Part shown: piece after piece, positions 7,512 to 20,432 of the stretch
Layout of the letters: each line of letters begins with the position of its first letter
How positions within the stretch are numbered: the stretch's first letter is position 1
Assembly (NCBI RefSeq): GCF_016907715.1
Contig: NZ_JAFBCM010000001.1
Location: 868,001 to 932,000, forward strand
Length of the DNA stretch: 64,000 nucleotides
From: Tenggerimyces flavus
GTDB lineage: Bacteria > Actinomycetota > Actinomycetes > Propionibacteriales > Actinopolymorphaceae
Direction: 5' to 3'
Program-made: the position numbers and the translations under genes
Notes under the pieces: generated by a model
The model's input: the letters and a program-made list of their open reading frames with translations, nothing else
What the model was told of the DNA's origin: nothing
The model's database searches: none

Positions 7512-8972
7512 TCAGAACGGGTAGGGCGCGATCGAGCCCTGCATCGTGAACCACTGCGTGTGGGTGAACGCGTCGAGGTTGCGGGTGAGACTGCCGAAGC
7601 GAGCGCCGGTTCCGGACGCTCCGACCCCGCCGAACGGGGCGACGGCCTCGTCGTCGACGGTCTGGTCGTTGATGTGCACGATGCCGGATGGGATCCGTTC
7701 CGCCAACGCCATCGCCGCGGACACGTCGGCGCTCAGCACGCCGAGCGACAGGCCGTACTCGGTGTCCCGCGCCAAGGCGACGGCCTCGTCCACCGAGCCG
7801 AACGTCGTCACCGGCGCGACCGGACCGAACACCTCGTTGGCCCACGCCGGCGTCGCCGGAGTCACCGAGGCGAGCACGGTCGGCCGATAGAACAGGTCCT
7901 CGAACGTTCCACCCGCCGCGAGCCGCGCGCCCGCCGAGACGCTCGACGTCACCAGCGAGTGCACCTTGTCGCGCTGCCCCGTGTCGATCAACGGACCCAG
8001 CGCCACCTGCGACGTCGCCGGATCGCCCATAGGCAAGTGATCTGCCTTTTCGGCCAGCCGCTCGACGTACTCCTCCGCGACGTCGCAATGGACAAGGTGT
8101 CTGCCTGTTGTCATGCAGATCTGTCCCTGATGCAGGAACGAGCCGAACGCCCCGGCCGACGCGGCCAGCCCGAGATCGGCGTCGGGGAGCACGATCAGCG
8201 CGGAGTTGCCGCCGAGCTCGAGGTGGACGCGCTTGAGGTGCCGCCCGGCGGTCTCACCCACCCGCCGGCCCGCGGCGGTCGAGCCGGTGAAGCTGAGCAC
8301 CGGCACGGACGGGTGGGCGACGAGCGCCTCACCCAGGTCGGGTCCACCGGGCAGCACGTGTAGCAGACCCTCCGGGAGCCCGGCCTCCTCGAAGATGCGC
8401 GCCAACAGCAGACCACCGGACACGGCGGTGCGCGGGTCGGGCTTCAGGACGACCGCGTTCCCGACGGCGAGCGCCGGCGCGACCGAACGGATCGAAAGGA
8501 TCAACGGGTAGTTGAACGGGGCGATCACGCCCACCACGCCGACGGGGATCCGGCGCGCGAGGCTCAGCCGCGGCCGCGCGGTCGCCAACACCTCGCCGGT
8601 CGGAGTCGACGCGAGCGCCGCGGCCTCGTAGCACTCCTGCGAAGCGACGTGCAGCTCCACGTCGGCCTTCGGCGGGATCGACCCGGCCTCCCGAACGAGC
8701 CACCCGCGGACCTCGTCGGCGTGATCCGACCACAGCGCACCCGCCCGACGCAGCACGGAGGCACGTTCCTCGAAGGAGGTCGCCGCCCACGCCGGCTGTG
8801 CGGCGACCGCTCGTGCGACCGCGCGGTCGAGGTCGTCGGTGTTCGCGAGGCCGACCCGGCCGAGCTCCGCACCGGTCGCGGGCTCGAGGTCGGCGACCTC
8901 ACCCCCGGCGGACTTGACCCATCCGTCGCTATAGATCCGACCTGTCCAGGTAGCGGCGTCGAGCAGGGTCAT
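7512..8972 (-). CDS. Benzaldehyde dehydrogenase (NAD-type aldehyde dehydrogenase)
   Basis: A 486-residue aldehyde dehydrogenase expected to oxidise benzaldehyde or 4-hydroxybenzaldehyde to the acid. The family signatures are complete: NAD-binding segment PFNYPLILSIRSVAPALAVGNAVVLKP, FTGSTAAGRRV, catalytic base Glu in HLELGGNSAL, catalytic Cys in GQICMTTGRH, and the C-terminal PFGGVGASGTGARFG. The overall pattern resembles the XylC and benzaldehyde dehydrogenase group. The ATG has GGAGG nine bases upstream and lies 12 nt after benzoylformate decarboxylase, the enzyme that would produce its aldehyde. With PobA downstream, the 4-hydroxy aldehyde is the most economical substrate (inference). Confidence 0.85.
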   Translation of the reverse strand: MTLLDAATWTGRIYSDGWVKSAGGEVADLEPATGAELGRVGLANTDDLDRAVARAVAAQPAWAATSFEERASVLRRAGALWSDHADEVRGWLVREAGSIPPKADVELHVASQECYEAAALASTPTGEVLATARPRLSLARRIPVGVVGVIAPFNYPLILSIRSVAPALAVGNAVVLKPDPRTAVSGGLLLARIFEEAGLPEGLLHVLPGGPDLGEALVAHPSVPVLSFTGSTAAGRRVGETAGRHLKRVHLELGGNSALIVLPDADLGLAASAGAFGSFLHQGQICMTTGRHLVHCDVAEEYVERLAEKADHLPMGDPATSQVALGPLIDTGQRDKVHSLVTSSVSAGARLAAGGTFEDLFYRPTVLASVTPATPAWANEVFGPVAPVTTFGSVDEAVALARDTEYGLSLGVLSADVSAAMALAERIPSGIVHINDQTVDDEAVAPFGGVGASGTGARFGSLTRNLDAFTHTQWFTMQGSIAPYPF

Positions 8973-8984
8973 GGCGGGCCTCCG

Positions 8985-10571
8985 TCAGGGTTCGAAGTGC
9001 TCCTCAGGTGTCACACGGACATCGAGAACGAGGGGTTCACGGCGGTCCGCGAGTCCAGGCAGAACCTCGTCGAACGTCGCGCGCAGGGTGGTTTCGTCGG
9101 TGATGAGGCGGGCGGGACAGCCCAGCGCTTCGGCCATCGCGCGGAGGTCGACGTCGAAGCCCGGCCAGGCCGGCTTGCCGCCTTGTCTCGCCGCGAGCAG
9201 GTCCATCACCGCGTAGCCGCCGTTGGACAGGACGAGGTAGAGGACGCCGCAGCCGTACTTGGCCGCACTCCAGAGCGCCTGGATGCCGTACATCGACGAG
9301 CCGTCGCCGACGACGGCGACAACCGGCCGGGTGGGGTCGCCGAGGCGCAGTCCGGCCGCGGCGGGCAGCGCGAAGCCGAGCCCACCCATCGCGGCGCTCA
9401 CGAAGCCACGGGGTGCGCGAGCGGGGACGTACTGGTGGAGCAGCGGCCGGGTGGAGGGCGTTTCCTCCACCAGGACGGCATCTTCGGGCAGCTGTTCGGC
9501 GAGCGCGGCGAACACGTGGCGGGCGGAGAACGGCCCCTCGGGCACCGGCGGAATCGTCCGAGAGGTATGCCTGCTGGTCTCGCGTCGCGACACCAGCTCG
9601 ACCAGTCGACCGCAGACCAAGGAGGGATCCGCGACCACCCCGAGAGTGGCGCTACTGCGGTGAACCGCCGCCGCCTCATCGGCGACAACGACCACGATCG
9701 CGCCGGATCGCACCAGCGGTCCAGGCTCGAACGGATATTGACGGAATGCCCCAGTCCCGATGACCAACACGACGTCGTACGGGGCGAGGGTCTCGCGGAG
9801 ACGCACTCTGCCTGCCGGCAGCTGACCAGCGAAGAGAGGATGGTCCTGCGGGAACCCCGCCCGTGCACCGAACGCCTCTTGCCACACAGGGCAGCCGAGG
9901 CGTTCGACAAGTTCGGTGAGAGCCGTCCAGGTCGCCGGAGTGTCCGCACCGGCCCCGGCGACGATCGCCGGCGAACGAGAGTCGGCCAGCAGGCTGGCGA
10001 TCTCCGCGACGCTCGCGTGATCGATCGCGGGAGGTCGACGAACCTCGAGGGGCGCGGCCAGGCCGAGGTCATCGGCGACCGGATCGTCCCAGTCGTCTCG
10101 CGGCACGATGACTATCGCGGGTCCGCGGCCATAGGCCGCCTCATGGCAAGCACGACGGATGGCCGAGGGCACATCCTGCGGAAGGGCGGGTTCCGACGTC
10201 CAGACGGGATAGGGTCCTGCCAAAGCCGTGAGGTGACCGGTCAAGAAGGGTTCCAGCGCGAGATGGCGGCGGTCCTGCTGGCCGACGACCACGACGAGCG
10301 GCGCCCGGTTGACGCGAGCGGTCGCGAGCGCGCCAACGGCGTTGCCCAGGCCCGCGGTGGTGTGCAGCAGAACGAACGCAGGCCGTTCGGTCGCGATCGC
10401 GAAACCTGTCGCCATCCCCACGACCGACCCCTCATGCAGCGCGAGCCGGAACCGAAAGTCCGACGGCAGGTCGACGAGGAACGGCACCTCGGTCGATCCC
10501 GGGTTGCTGAAGATGTCGACCATGCCGCAGGCACGCAGCACGTCGAACGTCGCCTCGCGGACCGTCGTCAC
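8985..10571 (-). CDS. mdlC: Benzoylformate decarboxylase, thiamine diphosphate-dependent
   Basis: Decarboxylates (4-hydroxy)phenylglyoxylate to (4-hydroxy)benzaldehyde. At 528 residues it matches the family length. Aligned by eye to the Pseudomonas enzyme, it keeps the active-site serine loop (NPGSTEVPF), the ThDP-activating glutamate (ALHEGSVVGMA) and the catalytic histidine (LLHTTAG). The cofactor Mg-binding motif is GDGSSMYGIQALWSAAKYG ending in LSNGGY. It starts at a GTG that overlaps the stop of the ABC ATPase (GTGA), so translation is probably coupled. No mandelate racemase or mandelate dehydrogenase is present, so the pathway here begins at the oxoacid. Other ThDP decarboxylases (indolepyruvate, acetolactate) are less likely given the S-E-H set. 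Confidence 0.9.
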   Translation of the reverse strand: MTTVREATFDVLRACGMVDIFSNPGSTEVPFLVDLPSDFRFRLALHEGSVVGMATGFAIATERPAFVLLHTTAGLGNAVGALATARVNRAPLVVVVGQQDRRHLALEPFLTGHLTALAGPYPVWTSEPALPQDVPSAIRRACHEAAYGRGPAIVIVPRDDWDDPVADDLGLAAPLEVRRPPAIDHASVAEIASLLADSRSPAIVAGAGADTPATWTALTELVERLGCPVWQEAFGARAGFPQDHPLFAGQLPAGRVRLRETLAPYDVVLVIGTGAFRQYPFEPGPLVRSGAIVVVVADEAAAVHRSSATLGVVADPSLVCGRLVELVSRRETSRHTSRTIPPVPEGPFSARHVFAALAEQLPEDAVLVEETPSTRPLLHQYVPARAPRGFVSAAMGGLGFALPAAAGLRLGDPTRPVVAVVGDGSSMYGIQALWSAAKYGCGVLYLVLSNGGYAVMDLLAARQGGKPAWPGFDVDLRAMAEALGCPARLITDETTLRATFDEVLPGLADRREPLVLDVRVTPEEHFEP

Positions 10572-12150: not shown

Positions 12151-12923
12151 GCCATCACCTCGCGGCGCACCGACTGGTGCCACCGAAGCGCCCATCGCTC
12201 GAGACGGCGGAAGAGTACGTCCACACCGACGCCGAGCCCGCCGGTGACGAGCACGAGCGCGTACATGCTGGCGATCGCGCCGCCGGACTGGGCCACGCCG
12301 ATCTGGTTGCCGAGCCCGGGGGCGCCGATGATCAGCTCGGCGGTGATTGCGAGGATCAACGCGACCGAGGCGGCGAGCCGCAGGCCGGTCATGACGTACG
12401 GCAAGGCAGAGGGCCAGACCACGTACCGGACCTCGGACCACCGACCGAGCCGGAACGAGCGCGCGGTCTCCCGCGCGACCGGATCGACATCGTGCACGCC
12501 GTACAACGTCTGGACGAGTACCTGCCAGAACGACGCGTAGACGACGAGCATCAGGACCGAGCCGAGATTCGTGTCGAACATCAACACAGCAAGGGGAATC
12601 AGCGCCACGGACGGGATCGGGCGCAGGAACTCGATCGTCGAGGCGGTGAGCTCCCGCAGCACCGGCACGATGCCGATGCCAACGCCAATGACAACGCCCA
12701 GCACCACCGCGATGCCCAGCCCGAGGAACCACCCCTTCAGCGTGTCGAGAAGGGCGAGCCAGAACTCGGCGGTCAGCAGCTGCTGGAAGAGCGCGACGAC
12801 CATGTCGCTGAACGGTGGCAGGAACTCCGGCGACACGATTCCGATCCGAGGCACCAGCTCGAGCAGCAACAAGAACGTGCCGAAGCCCGCGATACCGAGC
12901 ACCGTGTGAGGCCGCAAGGTCAC
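12147..12923 (-). CDS. ABC importer permease 1 (SsuC/TauC type)
   Basis: A 258-residue paralogue of the next permease with the same layout: six helices, the conserved segment IEFLRPIPSVALIPLAVLMFDTNLGS and an EAA-like loop (ETARSFRLGRWSEVRYVVWPSALPYVMTGLR). It starts with GTG overlapping the stop of the binding-protein gene (GTGA). Two different permease genes instead of one homodimeric permease is less common in sulfonate systems and is often seen in importers for larger organic anions (inference). Confidence 0.88.
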   Translation of the reverse strand: MTLRPHTVLGIAGFGTFLLLLELVPRIGIVSPEFLPPFSDMVVALFQQLLTAEFWLALLDTLKGWFLGLGIAVVLGVVIGVGIGIVPVLRELTASTIEFLRPIPSVALIPLAVLMFDTNLGSVLMLVVYASFWQVLVQTLYGVHDVDPVARETARSFRLGRWSEVRYVVWPSALPYVMTGLRLAASVALILAITAELIIGAPGLGNQIGVAQSGGAIASMYALVLVTGGLGVGVDVLFRRLERWALRWHQSVRREVMA

Positions 12924-13870
12924 GGCAACACACTCGACACGTCGAACTTCTCCTTGATCAGACCGTCCTCGAGCATGAGATCCGCGATCGTCTGTACGGA
13001 CTCCTTGTTGACCTCCTGCGGCCAGGCCGGCAGCGTCATCTGTGCGGCGACGTCCGCCTCGATCTTCGTGTAGTCCGACAGCACGGCACGCGCCTCGTCC
13101 GGATTGTCCTGCGCGTACTGCAATGACTTCTCGATCGCCGTCGTGAACCGCTTCGCGAGGTCGGCGTTCTCCTGCAGCACCTTCTCGGTGGTGAAGTAGA
13201 CCGCGACGGTCAGGTCCGGCGCGGCGTCGACGAAGTTGGACGCGATCACCTTGGCGCCCTGGTTCTTCGCGACGGTGAAGAACGGCTCGACGATCCAGGC
13301 CGCGTCGACGCGCTTGTTGGCGATCGCCGCCGGCATGTCCGGGAACGGCAACTCAGTGAACCGGATGTCGACCGGCTCCGCGCCGGCCTTGCGGACGGAC
13401 GCACGGATCGTGGTGTCGCCGATGTTCTTCTGGTTGTTGACCGCGACACTCTTGCCGGGCAGCTGGGCGGCGCTCGTGATCGGACTGTCCTTGGGGACGA
13501 CGATGCCGCCGAAGTCCTTGCCCTCCATGCCAGTCGAGGAGTTGCCCTCGGCGACAGCCTTCAACGGGATGTTCTGCGAGCGCGCGACGATCAGCGAGAC
13601 GACGTTGCCGAACGCGAAGGTGAACTCACCGCTGACCACACCCGGCACCGCGGCCGCGCCGCCGGTCGTGTTGACGACTTCGACCTCGAGGTTCTGCTCC
13701 TTGAAGAAGCCCTTCTTCACCCCGAGGTGCAGCGGGGCCACGTCGACGATCGGGATCGCGCCCACCTTGATCTTCTGCACGCCACCGTCGCTCGTGGTCG
13801 CGGGCTCAGACCCGGCGCAGGCCGTGCTGGTCAGCAAGATGGCGGCCGCTGCGAGAACGAGTCGACGCAT
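12920..13870 (-). CDS. Lipoprotein substrate-binding protein of the ABC importer (NMT1/SsuA-like)
   Basis: A 316-residue lipoprotein anchored outside the membrane that delivers substrate to the permeases. The signal peptide ends in the lipobox LLTSTAC, so Cys about 18 is lipidated. The body is of the NMT1/THI5-like fold (KIKVGAIPIVDVAPLHLGVKKGFFKEQNLEVEVV...). I chose the ATG at 13870 because AGGAGA precedes it; an ATG nine codons upstream has no site. It is the first gene of the leftward operon with the aromatic enzymes, so an aromatic acid such as (4-hydroxy)mandelate, benzoylformate or 4-hydroxybenzoate is the likely ligand (inference); the fold also binds nitrate, sulfonates and pyrimidines. 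Confidence 0.88.
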   Translation of the reverse strand: MRRLVLAAAAILLTSTACAGSEPATTSDGGVQKIKVGAIPIVDVAPLHLGVKKGFFKEQNLEVEVVNTTGGAAAVPGVVSGEFTFAFGNVVSLIVARSQNIPLKAVAEGNSSTGMEGKDFGGIVVPKDSPITSAAQLPGKSVAVNNQKNIGDTTIRASVRKAGAEPVDIRFTELPFPDMPAAIANKRVDAAWIVEPFFTVAKNQGAKVIASNFVDAAPDLTVAVYFTTEKVLQENADLAKRFTTAIEKSLQYAQDNPDEARAVLSDYTKIEADVAAQMTLPAWPQEVNKESVQTIADLMLEDGLIKEKFDVSSVLP

Positions 13871-13905
13871 GGGGGTCTCCTTCGACCAGGCGTGCACCGC
13901 GATGT

Positions 13906-13939
13906 GTTCGCATATCGAACGAGCGTTCTCACAGAGAAC
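13906..13939. promoter_or_regulatory. Compound IclR-type operator, copy 1 (before the ABC/mdlC/pobA operon)
   Basis: Two 15-bp palindromes, GTTCG-CATAT-CGAAC (13906-13920) and GTTCT-CACAG-AGAAC (13925-13939), are separated by GAGC. The first resembles the published 10+ bp palindrome bound by PcaU, PobR and PcaR of the IclR family. It lies 36 bp upstream of the binding-protein start. The rightward operon ends with an IclR gene, the obvious candidate regulator. Confidence 0.7.
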
Positions 13940-13995
13940 ATAGTCGCGACCTCGAGGGCAGTCAACGCGTTGACGGAGCCGGAGTGCGGCCGTAT

Positions 13996-14029
13996 GTTCG
14001 TGATGAGAACGAGCGTCCGGGATGCGAAC
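13996..14029. promoter_or_regulatory. Compound IclR-type operator, copy 2 (before the pca operon)
   Basis: It has the same architecture as copy 1: GTTCG-TGATG-AGAAC (13996-14010), GAGC, then GTCCG-GGATG-CGAAC (14015-14029, one arm mismatch). Copy 2 starts exactly 90 bp after copy 1 and ends 32 bp before pcaI. The repeated 19-bp phasing would place two dimers on roughly the same face of the DNA. Confidence 0.68.
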
Positions 14030-14061
14030 GTACGTCAGGAAGCGCGGCGAGAGGCAGGTCC

Positions 14062-14862
14062 ATGGCCAAGGTCGTCTCTTTGGCTGACGGCATCGCCGAA
14101 CTCGTACGCGACGGAGATCTCGTTGCTCTGGAGGGCTTCACCCACCTCATCCCGTTCGCCGCCGCGCACGAGATCATCAGGCAGGGAAGGCGAAACCTCA
14201 CGCTCGCCCGGATGACACCGGACCTCATCTACGACCAGCTGATCGGCATGGGCTGCGCCAGCAAGCTGATCTTCAGCTGGGGCGGCAACCCGGGCGTCGG
14301 TTCGCTGCACCGGTTCCGCGACGCCGTTCAGAACGGCTGGCCCACCGCGCTCGAGATCGAGGAGCACAGCCACGCCGGCATGGCGAACAGGTACGTCGCG
14401 GGCGCGTCCGGCCTGCCGTTCGCGGTGCTGCGCGGCTACACCGGCACGGACCTGGCGAAGCACACCGAGACGGTCAGGCAGATTACCTGTCCATTCACCG
14501 GCGAGCAGCTGACCGCCGTCCCCGCCCTCCAGCCGGACGTGACGATCGTGCACGCGCAGCGCGCGGACCACGACGGCAACGTGCAGCTGTGGGGCATCAC
14601 CGGAGTGCAGAAGGAAGCCGTGCTGGCCGCGAAGCGGTCGCTGATCACCGTCGAGGAGCTCATCGACGAGCTCGAGCCCGTCCCCAACCAGGTGATCCTG
14701 CCGGGCTGGGCGATCACGGCCGTGTCCCTGGTGCCGGGTGGAGCGCATCCCTCGTACACGATGGGGTACTCGACCCGCGACAACGACTACTACCAGCGGT
14801 GGGACGCCATCAGCCGGGAGCGCGAGACGTTCACCGGCTGGATGCGGGAGAACGTGCTGTGA
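14062..14862 (+). CDS. pcaI: 3-oxoadipate CoA-transferase subunit A
   Basis: With PcaJ it moves CoA from succinyl-CoA to 3-oxoadipate, the penultimate step of the beta-ketoadipate pathway. The 266-residue length and the pattern (VVSLADGIAELVRDGDLVALEGFTHLIPFAAAHEI, then ITCPFTGEQLTAVPALQPDVTIVHAQRADHDGNVQLWG) match family I CoA-transferase alpha subunits of the PcaI/CatI type. I chose the ATG at 14062, which follows GAGAGG; upstream codons in this frame run through the operator region. First gene of the rightward operon; its stop overlaps the pcaJ start. Confidence 0.92.
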   Translation: MAKVVSLADGIAELVRDGDLVALEGFTHLIPFAAAHEIIRQGRRNLTLARMTPDLIYDQLIGMGCASKLIFSWGGNPGVGSLHRFRDAVQNGWPTALEIEEHSHAGMANRYVAGASGLPFAVLRGYTGTDLAKHTETVRQITCPFTGEQLTAVPALQPDVTIVHAQRADHDGNVQLWGITGVQKEAVLAAKRSLITVEELIDELEPVPNQVILPGWAITAVSLVPGGAHPSYTMGYSTRDNDYYQRWDAISRERETFTGWMRENVL

Positions 14863-18082: not shown

Positions 18083-19292
18083 TCGCGCGCTCTTCGAGGC
18101 GATGCTCGACGTCGAGCGAGCGCTGACCACGGCCAACGCGGTGATGGGACTCGTCCCGACGTCCGCCGCCGCGCGGATCAACGCGGTCTGTGAGGTCGAA
18201 CGGTACGACGTCGACGCGATCTGGCAGCAGGCCGAGTCCTCGGGCAATCCGGTCGTTCCCCTGGTCGAGGCCATCAGCGCGGAAGCCGGACCGTGGGTGC
18301 ACTTCGGCGCGACGAGTCAGGACGTCCTCGACACGGCGATGATGCTGACCGTCAAGCGAGCCGTGACGGCGATGCCCTTGGCCGGCGTGCTCGACGCCTG
18401 TGCTGGGCTCGTTCGGGAGCATCGGTCGACGGTGATGGCCGCGCGGACGCTGGGGCAGCAGGCGGTGCCGACCACGTTCGGGCTGCTGGCGGCCACCTGG
18501 CTGAACGGCCTGGTCGGCCGGTTGGACATCGTGGGGGTCCTGCAGTTCGGCGGTGCGGCGGGGACGCTGGCCGCTTCCGACCGGCGCGGGCTCGCGGTTG
18601 CCGACCACCTCGGCAGACTGCTGGAGCTCGAGGTGCCGGCGCTCCCCTGGCACACCGACCGTGCTCCGATCCGGGCCGTGGCGAACGAGCTGGCCAGCAC
18701 GGTCGTCGCCTGCGGCAAGATCGCGCTGGACGTGACGTTGCTCGCGCAGACCGAGGTCGGCGAGGTCTCGGAGGGAACGGGCGGCAGCTCCTCGGCCATG
18801 CCGCACAAGCAGAACCCGATCGGCTCCGTCCTGATCGGCGCCGCCGCCCGCCGCGTCCCCGGGCTGCTCGGCCCGTTCTACGCACCGCACGAGCTCCACC
18901 GGGCGACCGGCGCCTGGCATGCGGAGTGGGAGCCGCTGCGCGAGCTCGTCGAGCTCACGCACGTGACGCTCGAACGCACCGAGCGACTGTTAGGAAACCT
19001 TCAGATCCATCCCGAACGCATGCTGGCCAACCTCGATCCACGCGTCATGGCCGAGAGCGTGGCGAGCCGCCTCGCGGCCCTGCTCGGTCGCACCGAGGCG
19101 CACAGGATCGTGGTGAGGGCGAGTGGGGGCGGCGACTTCCGCGCGTCGTTGGTCGCCGATCCGGACGTACGCGGGGTGCTTTCGGTCGAGGAGCTCGATC
19201 ACGCGCTGGACCCGACGAGCTGGCTGGGCAGCGCGGACGAGCTGATCGAGCGCGCGTTGGCGGCGTACGAGGAAGGAAGGCGTCATGGATGA
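18057..19292 (+). CDS. pcaB: 3-carboxy-cis,cis-muconate cycloisomerase
   Basis: Forms 4-carboxymuconolactone from 3-carboxymuconate. A 411-residue member of the fumarase/aspartase superfamily, with the signature GSSSAMPHKQNPIGS carrying the catalytic loop serine and WVHFGATSQDVLDTAMML near the N terminus. The predicted start (ATG 18057, AGGG upstream) overlaps pcaG by 26 nt. The N terminus is a few residues shorter than in some homologues, and GTG 18051 is possible. Confidence 0.92.
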   Translation: MRPSSSPFSRALFEAMLDVERALTTANAVMGLVPTSAAARINAVCEVERYDVDAIWQQAESSGNPVVPLVEAISAEAGPWVHFGATSQDVLDTAMMLTVKRAVTAMPLAGVLDACAGLVREHRSTVMAARTLGQQAVPTTFGLLAATWLNGLVGRLDIVGVLQFGGAAGTLAASDRRGLAVADHLGRLLELEVPALPWHTDRAPIRAVANELASTVVACGKIALDVTLLAQTEVGEVSEGTGGSSSAMPHKQNPIGSVLIGAAARRVPGLLGPFYAPHELHRATGAWHAEWEPLRELVELTHVTLERTERLLGNLQIHPERMLANLDPRVMAESVASRLAALLGRTEAHRIVVRASGGGDFRASLVADPDVRGVLSVEELDHALDPTSWLGSADELIERALAAYEEGRRHG

Positions 19293-19665
19293 GGCAGCGC
19301 GGTACGAGCACGGGATGACCATTCGCCGGGAGGTGCTCGGCGACGAGCACGTGGACCGGTCCATCGCGCGTGCGGACGCCGTGACGACGGACTTCCAGGA
19401 GCTCGTCACCCGCTACGCGTGGGGCGACATCTGGTCCAGGCCAGGGTTGTCGAGGCAGACCAGGAGCTGCATCACAGTGGCGATGCTGGCCGCGTTGCGC
19501 CACGACGACGAGCTCACGCTGCACCTCCGCGGCGCTGTGCGGAACGGGCTGTCGCGCGAGGAGATCGTCGAAGTGCTGCTGCAGGTCGCCGTCTACGCTG
19601 GGGTCCCGGCGGCGAACCGCGCGTTCGCCATCGCACAACGAGTGTTGGCAGAGGAGCTGGGATGA
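19285..19665 (+). CDS. pcaC: 4-carboxymuconolactone decarboxylase (stand-alone)
   Basis: Decarboxylates 4-carboxymuconolactone to 3-oxoadipate enol-lactone. 126 residues with the CMD fold: FQELVTRYAWGDIWSRPGLSRQTRSCITVAMLAAL and EEIVEVLLQVAVYAGVPAANRAF. In many actinomycetes this domain is fused behind the enol-lactone hydrolase (PcaL). Here it is a separate short protein and no hydrolase gene lies beside it. It overlaps pcaB by 8 nt and the regulator by 4 nt. Confidence 0.93.
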   Translation: MDEAARYEHGMTIRREVLGDEHVDRSIARADAVTTDFQELVTRYAWGDIWSRPGLSRQTRSCITVAMLAALRHDDELTLHLRGAVRNGLSREEIVEVLLQVAVYAGVPAANRAFAIAQRVLAEELG

Positions 19666-20432
19666 CGAGCGGGCGTGGCCCGGAGTTCGTGCAGTCGTTG
19701 GAACGCGGGCTCGCCGTGATCCGCGCGTTCGACGCGGACCATCCCGAGCTCACGCTGTCCGACGTCGCCCGAGCGACCGGCCTGACGCGCGCCGCGGCGC
19801 GGCGTTTCCTGCTGACGTTGGTGGAACTCGGCTACATGCGGACCGACGGCCGGCTGTTCGGGCTGCGTCCGCGCATCCTCGAGCTGGGCTACGCGTACCT
19901 GTCGTCGCTGTCGTTGCCGGAGCTCGCCCAACCCCACATGGAGGCGCTCGTCGCCGAGGTGCGCGAGTCGTGCTCGGTGTCGGTGCTCGACGGCACCGAG
20001 GTCGTGTACGTCGCGCGGGTGCCGACGAAGCGGATTATGGCCGTCGCGATCGCCGTGGGTACTCGTTTCCCCGCGCATGCCACCTCGATGGGTCGGGTGC
20101 TGTTGGCGCATCAGCCGGCGGAGTGGGTGGACTCGTACCTGTCGACGACTTCCCTTGTGGCATTGACACCTCGGACCATCACGGATCCGGAGCGGCTGCG
20201 GTCGGTGTTGTCGCGGGTCCGTTCGCAGGGCTTCGCGGTCGTCGACCAGGAACTCGAAGAGGGCTTGCGTTCGATGGCGGTGCCGATCCGCGACGCGAGC
20301 GGTGCGGTGGTCGCGGCCATGAACGTGTCGGCGCGCACGAGTCGCGGCTCGTCCGAGGCGATCCGCCGCGAGCTGCTTCCCCCTCTGCAGAAGGCCGCGC
20401 AGGCGATCGAGACCGATCTCAGCGGCGCCTAG
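19662..20432 (+). CDS. IclR-family regulator of the aromatic operons (PcaR/PobR-like)
   Basis: A 256-residue transcription factor with an N-terminal winged HTH (LTLSDVARATGLTRAAARRFLLTLVELGYM, about 30-60) and a C-terminal IclR effector domain (RVPTKRIMAVAIAVGTRFPAHATSMGRVLLAH ... SRGFAV-type QGFAVVDQELEEGLRSMAVPI). The high match to the PcaR/PcaU/PobR branch suggests binding of 3-oxoadipate, protocatechuate or 4-hydroxybenzoate. It is the last gene of the pca operon (ATGA overlap with pcaC) and so is autoregulated. The operators are most likely the two compound palindromes at 13.9-14.03 kb (inference). Activator or repressor action cannot be told from sequence. Confidence 0.88.
   Translation: MTSGRGPEFVQSLERGLAVIRAFDADHPELTLSDVARATGLTRAAARRFLLTLVELGYMRTDGRLFGLRPRILELGYAYLSSLSLPELAQPHMEALVAEVRESCSVSVLDGTEVVYVARVPTKRIMAVAIAVGTRFPAHATSMGRVLLAHQPAEWVDSYLSTTSLVALTPRTITDPERLRSVLSRVRSQGFAVVDQELEEGLRSMAVPIRDASGAVVAAMNVSARTSRGSSEAIRRELLPPLQKAAQAIETDLSGA

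Follow-up and report, generated by a model that had tools for sequence, protein, structure and literature searches.

The analysed window, a stretch of 64,000 nucleotides of the Tenggerimyces flavus genome, carries two divergent operons: a minus-strand transporter/aromatic operon and a plus-strand pca operon (Table 1). The plus-strand operon has the gene order pcaI, J, F, H, G, B, C, pcaR, and the pca genes are presumably read as one transcript. Here, pcaH and pcaR score above their NCBIfam cut-offs, pcaF lies above the cut-off of a general thiolase model and below that of the pcaF model, and pcaI, J and B match their own models, all below cut-off; pcaG and pcaC were named from the reading of the open reading frames (ORFs) and from gene order. 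The minus-strand operon includes pobA (above a subfamily cut-off), a benzoylformate-decarboxylase-like enzyme that stays below cut-off and an aldehyde dehydrogenase that reaches none of the cut-offs of the 25 models shown, together with a permease, an ATPase and an MFS protein named from reading their ORFs.

Within the pca operon, pcaB directly overlaps pcaC (window 19285-19292). The relative L064 has an ORF between these two genes (8234-9595) that by eye reads like a pcaD hydrolase. Searching the T. flavus genome itself with TIGR02427 (pcaD) gave no match above cut-off, the best reaching 154.3 versus 255.85 bits (C1:7680265).

Table 1 Genes, promoter elements and predicted operator modules of the divergent locus (window coordinates).
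Feature	Position	Strand	Remark
SsuA-like ABC substrate-binding protein, first minus-strand operon gene	12920..13870	-	best NCBIfam match below cut-off
Module A, predicted operator	13906..13939	-	GTTCGCATATCGAAC-GAGC-GTTCTCACAGAGAAC; for the minus-strand transporter/aromatic operon
Palindrome A1	13906..13920		GTTCGCATATCGAAC; 15 bp
Module A linker GAGC	13921..13924		reads GCTC when viewed from the minus-strand promoter
Palindrome A2	13925..13939		GTTCTCACAGAGAAC; outer half-site has GTT in common with the -10 hexamer
-10 hexamer TATGTT, minus-strand promoter	13937..13942	-	overlaps module A
-35 hexamer TTGACT, minus-strand promoter	13960..13965	-	promoter scan
Perfect 14-bp inverted repeat	13961..13974		GTCAACGCGTTGAC; five bases of each -35 hexamer; centre at the midpoint of A and B
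-35 hexamer TTGACG, pca promoter	13970..13975	+	promoter scan
-10 hexamer TATGTT, pca promoter	13993..13998	+	overlaps module B
Module B, predicted operator	13996..14029	+	GTTCGTGATGAGAAC-GAGC-GTCCGGGATGCGAAC; for the pca operon
Palindrome B1	13996..14010		GTTCGTGATGAGAAC; 15 bp
Module B linker GAGC	14011..14014		sequence
Palindrome B2	14015..14029		GTCCGGGATGCGAAC; 15 bp
pcaI-like CoA-transferase subunit A, first pca operon gene	14062..14862	+	below NCBIfam cut-off
pcaR, IclR family, last pca operon gene	19662..20432	+	TIGR02431, 351.6 bits, cut-off 284.75

Paired modules at two divergent promoters

The gap between the SsuA-like and the pcaI-like gene holds two 34-bp modules, A and B, whose starts are 90 bp apart. 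In both modules the palindrome centres are separated by 19 bp, which falls within the 18-22 bp of tandem IclR operators, and the coordinates place the palindromes at -40 and -59 for pcaI and at -43 and -62 for the binding-protein gene. All four are GTNCG-N5-CGNAC-like palindromes of the IclR group-1 type; the exact form GTTCG-N5-CGAAC occurs in the first only, the other three departing from it at one or two consensus positions. The sequence bears out the original prediction of a palindrome-GAGC-palindrome arrangement present twice at a distance of 90 bp, with both linkers reading GAGC on the plus strand. The same holds for its proposal of two dimer-sized, 15-bp palindromes of IclR type per module (5, 5, 4 and 4 of 5 arm pairs matched) and of one module per divergent promoter, A accompanying the minus-strand promoter and B the pca promoter.

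Such an arrangement is rare by chance. Of 5000 dinucleotide shuffles of 13871-14061, 3 gave a motif-scored 19-bp module, compared with two observed, and the three self-palindrome pairs counted without the motif were likewise reached in 3/5000 shuffles of that region. Across the 8.5-Mb genome, GAACGAGCGTYCN7GAAC has two matches at zero mismatches, both in the window modules, and 30 at up to two mismatches (backward-read control: 2). The two-palindrome pattern with any linker, again at up to two mismatches, is found at five places, two being the window modules (backward-read control: 0). The other three are probably coding sequence, since the longest open stretches through them run over 369, 249 and 543 aa; a further near-match with a GAGC linker (C1:3259) also appears, by eye, to read like coding sequence.

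With regard to their origin, the two modules match better as inverted copies (29/40 positions) than as same-strand copies (25/40), and a recent same-strand duplication was rejected on this ground. Outside the half-sites, 14/24 positions agree between A and B; when A or B was compared with other modules, 4/56 and 2/56 comparisons, respectively, reached this value. The modules may have arisen by inverted duplication.

A separate promoter scan identified TTGAC(T/G)-N17-TATGTT on both strands (9/12 match; 0.0 expected in 50 shuffles). Taking transcription to start 7 nt past the -10 hexamers, near 13930 (-) and 14005 (+), each module extends from about -9 to about +25 relative to the predicted start. 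Both modules begin within the -10 hexamer, which is overlapped by the outer half-site, and the two -35 hexamers, only 4 bp apart, lie within a perfect inverted repeat. Over the region 13906-14029, 42/62 positions are self-complementary, the highest value among 63876 centres in the window; much of this symmetry follows from the common half-sites and promoter boxes.

Spacing, linkers and module distance in related loci

We further looked at the recurrence of the modules using the best 80 of 143 named loci encoding a PcaR relative (61-81% identity to the window PcaR). In a scan of 177 upstream regions taken from these loci and the window (81 sources), 58 modules with 19-bp spacing, including the window's two, were found in 48/81 sources; the gap of locus L117 contributes two overlapping rows to this number. 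When spacings from 8 to 45 were scanned, 58 pairs fell at 19 bp and at most 8 at any other distance. An anchor test, which leaves the partner unselected, gave the same picture: an anchor palindrome was present in 64/76 gaps, and the fraction of positions scoring at least 7 was 0.258 at +/-19, compared with no more than 0.039 at other offsets from 8 to 60. At the threshold of this test, 44/76 gaps lacked an anchor (12) or a partner (32), and many of the 32 partner-less gaps belong to Streptomyces, with partners scoring 3 to 6. At the level of the order, 74/293 genomes had a match; the 30 best were kept as loci, one being the window's own, and the 19-bp pair was found in 27 of the other 29. Many of the scanned loci are close relatives and thus do not count as independent.

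Extending a 34-base scan to whole loci with their coding DNA returned 101 rows in 60/81 sources for the motif. Among four control palindromes, two gave few pairs (10 and 3 in all), the third gave 18, 6 and 1 pairs at 18, 19 and 20 bp, and the fourth (TGTCG core) gave 48, 11 and 11, respectively. Because control palindromes also pair over whole loci, we rely on the upstream-region counts and the anchor test. A 20-bp tandem repeat in Actinoplanes sandaracinus (L097, 2179-2273; unit CTTCGGACCTCGACCGGTCA) mimics tandem sites.

The promoter overlap recurs together with the spacing. With modules turned towards the nearer gene, 43/58 have a -35/-10 match of at least 8/12 near the outer end, against about 4.9 predicted by single-base shuffles, and in 30 of these 43 the -10 hexamer starts 3 or 4 bases before the module; the remaining 15/58 lack a good promoter match.

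The linkers behave differently from the spacing. All are 4 bp long in the 58 modules, and they comprise 39 different sequences with 0.06-0.28 bits of information per column, compared with up to 2 bits in half-site columns, values that are inflated because modules were selected by half-site score. Linker length is thus conserved and linker identity is not. Direct recognition of GAGC, or a linker shape adapted to the tetramer, is hardly credible: the linker is identical on the plus strand in both window modules and GAGC also occurs in one relative (L071), but an identical pair arises by chance in about 0.8% of cases, and at least once in nine gaps in about 7%. Moreover, since the promoters are divergent and their frames opposite, calling the linkers the same depends on the strand; in the promoter frame, linker A reads GCTC and linker B GAGC. 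The significance ascribed to GAGC identity is therefore not upheld; in relatives, the 19-bp layout of the module recurs with varied linkers.

The original prediction also considered a tetramer bridging both promoters. Nine gaps contain two separate modules, at distances of 74, 80, 90, 101, 106, 116, 124, 152 and 220 bp, corresponding to 7.05 to 20.95 turns at 10.5 bp (window: 8.57 turns), and no conserved helical phase between the two modules, as looping would imply, was found across them. A PcaR tetramer that loops the 90 bp and couples the promoters, which could act in addition to separate repression at each module, would fit the symmetry of the window modules about one centre. In each of the nine other two-row gaps this symmetry is less pronounced (0.35-0.50 versus 0.68; the L117 rows overlap), and 38 of the 48 module-bearing sources have a single module in the regions scanned. 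With a variable distance and no constant phase, bridging finds no support and is very unlikely. The 90-bp separation is a by-product of two promoters of the same design standing back to back.

PcaR and the half-site base linked to residue 43

The IclR-family protein at the end of the pca operon belongs to the PcaR/PcaU/PobR subfamily, scoring well above the TIGR02431 cut-off (Table 1). Its proposed role as the protein binding these sites, a prediction in itself, gains from this match, from the recurrence of modules near its orthologues and from a covariation with residue 43 of the protein. For the latter analysis, the first half-site base was left free, and the 91 best-scoring rows from 81/110 sources were taken; tied rows and some that are probably due to chance are among them and were all kept in the counts. 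The first half-site base is G in 267/292 cases with Arg43 regulators and in 1/72 with Pro43 regulators; in the other 71/72, Pro43 regulators have T, C or A, and the 19-bp register is kept. Since all 18 Pro43 loci (among L040-L063) come from one genus, inferred to be Kribbella, the covariation may represent a single event. Locus L041 combines Arg43 with Ile49, a residue common to the Pro43 regulators, and retains G, which points to residue 43. Although confined to one genus on the Pro43 side, the tracking of the half-site base by residue 43 ties PcaR to the sites.

By the pattern R-x-A-x-R-R, residue 43 is equivalent to Arg56 of PobR and Arg47 of TtgV, which are described as important for DNA binding (PMC8222616). 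The same source correlates arginine at this position with operator columns 8/24; here, the covarying base is at columns 9/23 by our count, one column off.

Another IclR-family regulator of the genome, rather than the operon's own, could in principle bind the modules, and further IclR-like candidates exist (63 at first look, 9 scored, 1 passing 1e-50). However, the modules recur beside PcaR orthologues and the half-site base covaries with the PcaR recognition helix. In addition, no anchor was present in four gaps that separate pobA from a second, distant IclR regulator (34-36% identity to the window PcaR), the best score being 5 or 6 of 10. We consider such a regulator very unlikely.

Predicted repression and relation to known systems

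Overlap with the -10 or start region, which marks PcaR repressor operators, is seen in both modules at the predicted starts, and repression is therefore predicted. We consider it very probable that each module is a four-half-site PcaR operator through which PcaR represses both divergent operons. Two PcaR dimers, probably as a tetramer, would sit side by side on each module, their centres separated by 19 bp (about 1.8 turns). Since the half-site nearest the promoter merges with the -10 hexamer (TATGTTC) and the module reaches about +25, bound PcaR would stand in the way of RNA polymerase at the start. As long as a pathway inducer is absent, PcaR would repress both operons together and, since pcaR is the last gene of the pca operon, its own gene as well, with A and B acting in parallel, one per promoter. 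Binding, tetramer formation, repression and induction are all steps that we infer from this layout.

This layout is of a known type, because tandem IclR sites, PcaR repression and its dependence on the -10 position have been published. Tandem IclR sites 18-22 bp apart were predicted for 94 orthologous groups and read as tetramer sites (Suvorova and Gelfand 2021, PMC8222616). Group-1 operators described there likewise consist of GTNCG-N5-6-CGNAC tandem palindromes with centres mainly 19-21 bp apart, and compared with that description the window shows nothing different in kind: the double-site layout is known for the family, and the window is a good but ordinary example. What is added here in detail is a second module, an overlap with the -10 at divergent promoters and, across actinobacterial PcaR loci, a constant 19-bp spacing. 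For the pca regulator of Corynebacterium glutamicum, PcaR, which is called a repressor (PMC9582017), the palindromic operator GTTCGC-N3-GCGAAC has the same half-site (PMC8222616, from Brinkrolf 2006); unlike the window, it is listed there as one palindrome and not as a tandem module. The Acinetobacter PcaU/PobR sites also alternate their half-sites, and the inner boxes of module A, GAAC-N4-GTTC, correspond to the group-2 arrangement, but those sites are given with three boxes and the window modules have four (PMC8222616).

For Pseudomonas putida PcaR (structure 8EJU), a member of the same regulator family with the operator GTTCGATAATCGCAC, the outcome is reported to be set by position relative to the -10 (PMC12455658). 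In contrast to the window, that account has a single box bound by PcaR, and some promoters are activated. Pseudomonas PcaR proteins activate when the box is upstream, so PcaR could be an activator or dual regulator here too; we regard this as unlikely, as both modules run from the -10 past the predicted start, where repression is reported. In Pseudomonas stutzeri, PcaR changes from activator to repressor when the box overlaps the -10 or lies downstream (PMC12455658), and PcaR of Rhodococcus opacus, encoded in its own operon, is a repressor (PMC9582017), which likewise speaks against activation.

The predicted regulon thus has one repressor with two operators and would cover the transporter, the upper aromatic pathway (decarboxylase-like enzyme, aldehyde dehydrogenase and pobA) and the protocatechuate pathway. 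More tentatively, and with some doubt, the layout can be viewed as an actinobacterial composite promoter-operator, in which the -10 and first half-site form TAYGTTC and the second palindrome follows 19 bp on. As part of this reading, one polymerase would exclude the other at -35 hexamers standing so close, and the operons might fire in alternation; the induced transporter and pca operons would then share one polymerase-loading region. Searches of openly licensed papers listed no study of such a composite promoter-operator. The natural series of linkers, module distances and the residue-43 switch provides material on how IclR tetramers read tandem sites.

As minor observations on pcaR distribution, the closest PcaR among the best 80 of 143 named loci is from Plantactinospora (81%), and no match at 1e-50 was found in the 7 other genomes of the family searched, a pattern possibly reflecting acquisition of the cluster by horizontal transfer or its loss from relatives. 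Locus L085, titled Bacillus sp. AZ43 (UNVERIFIED_ORG), carries a PcaR/ABC-transporter locus of actinobacterial type and is possibly mislabelled.
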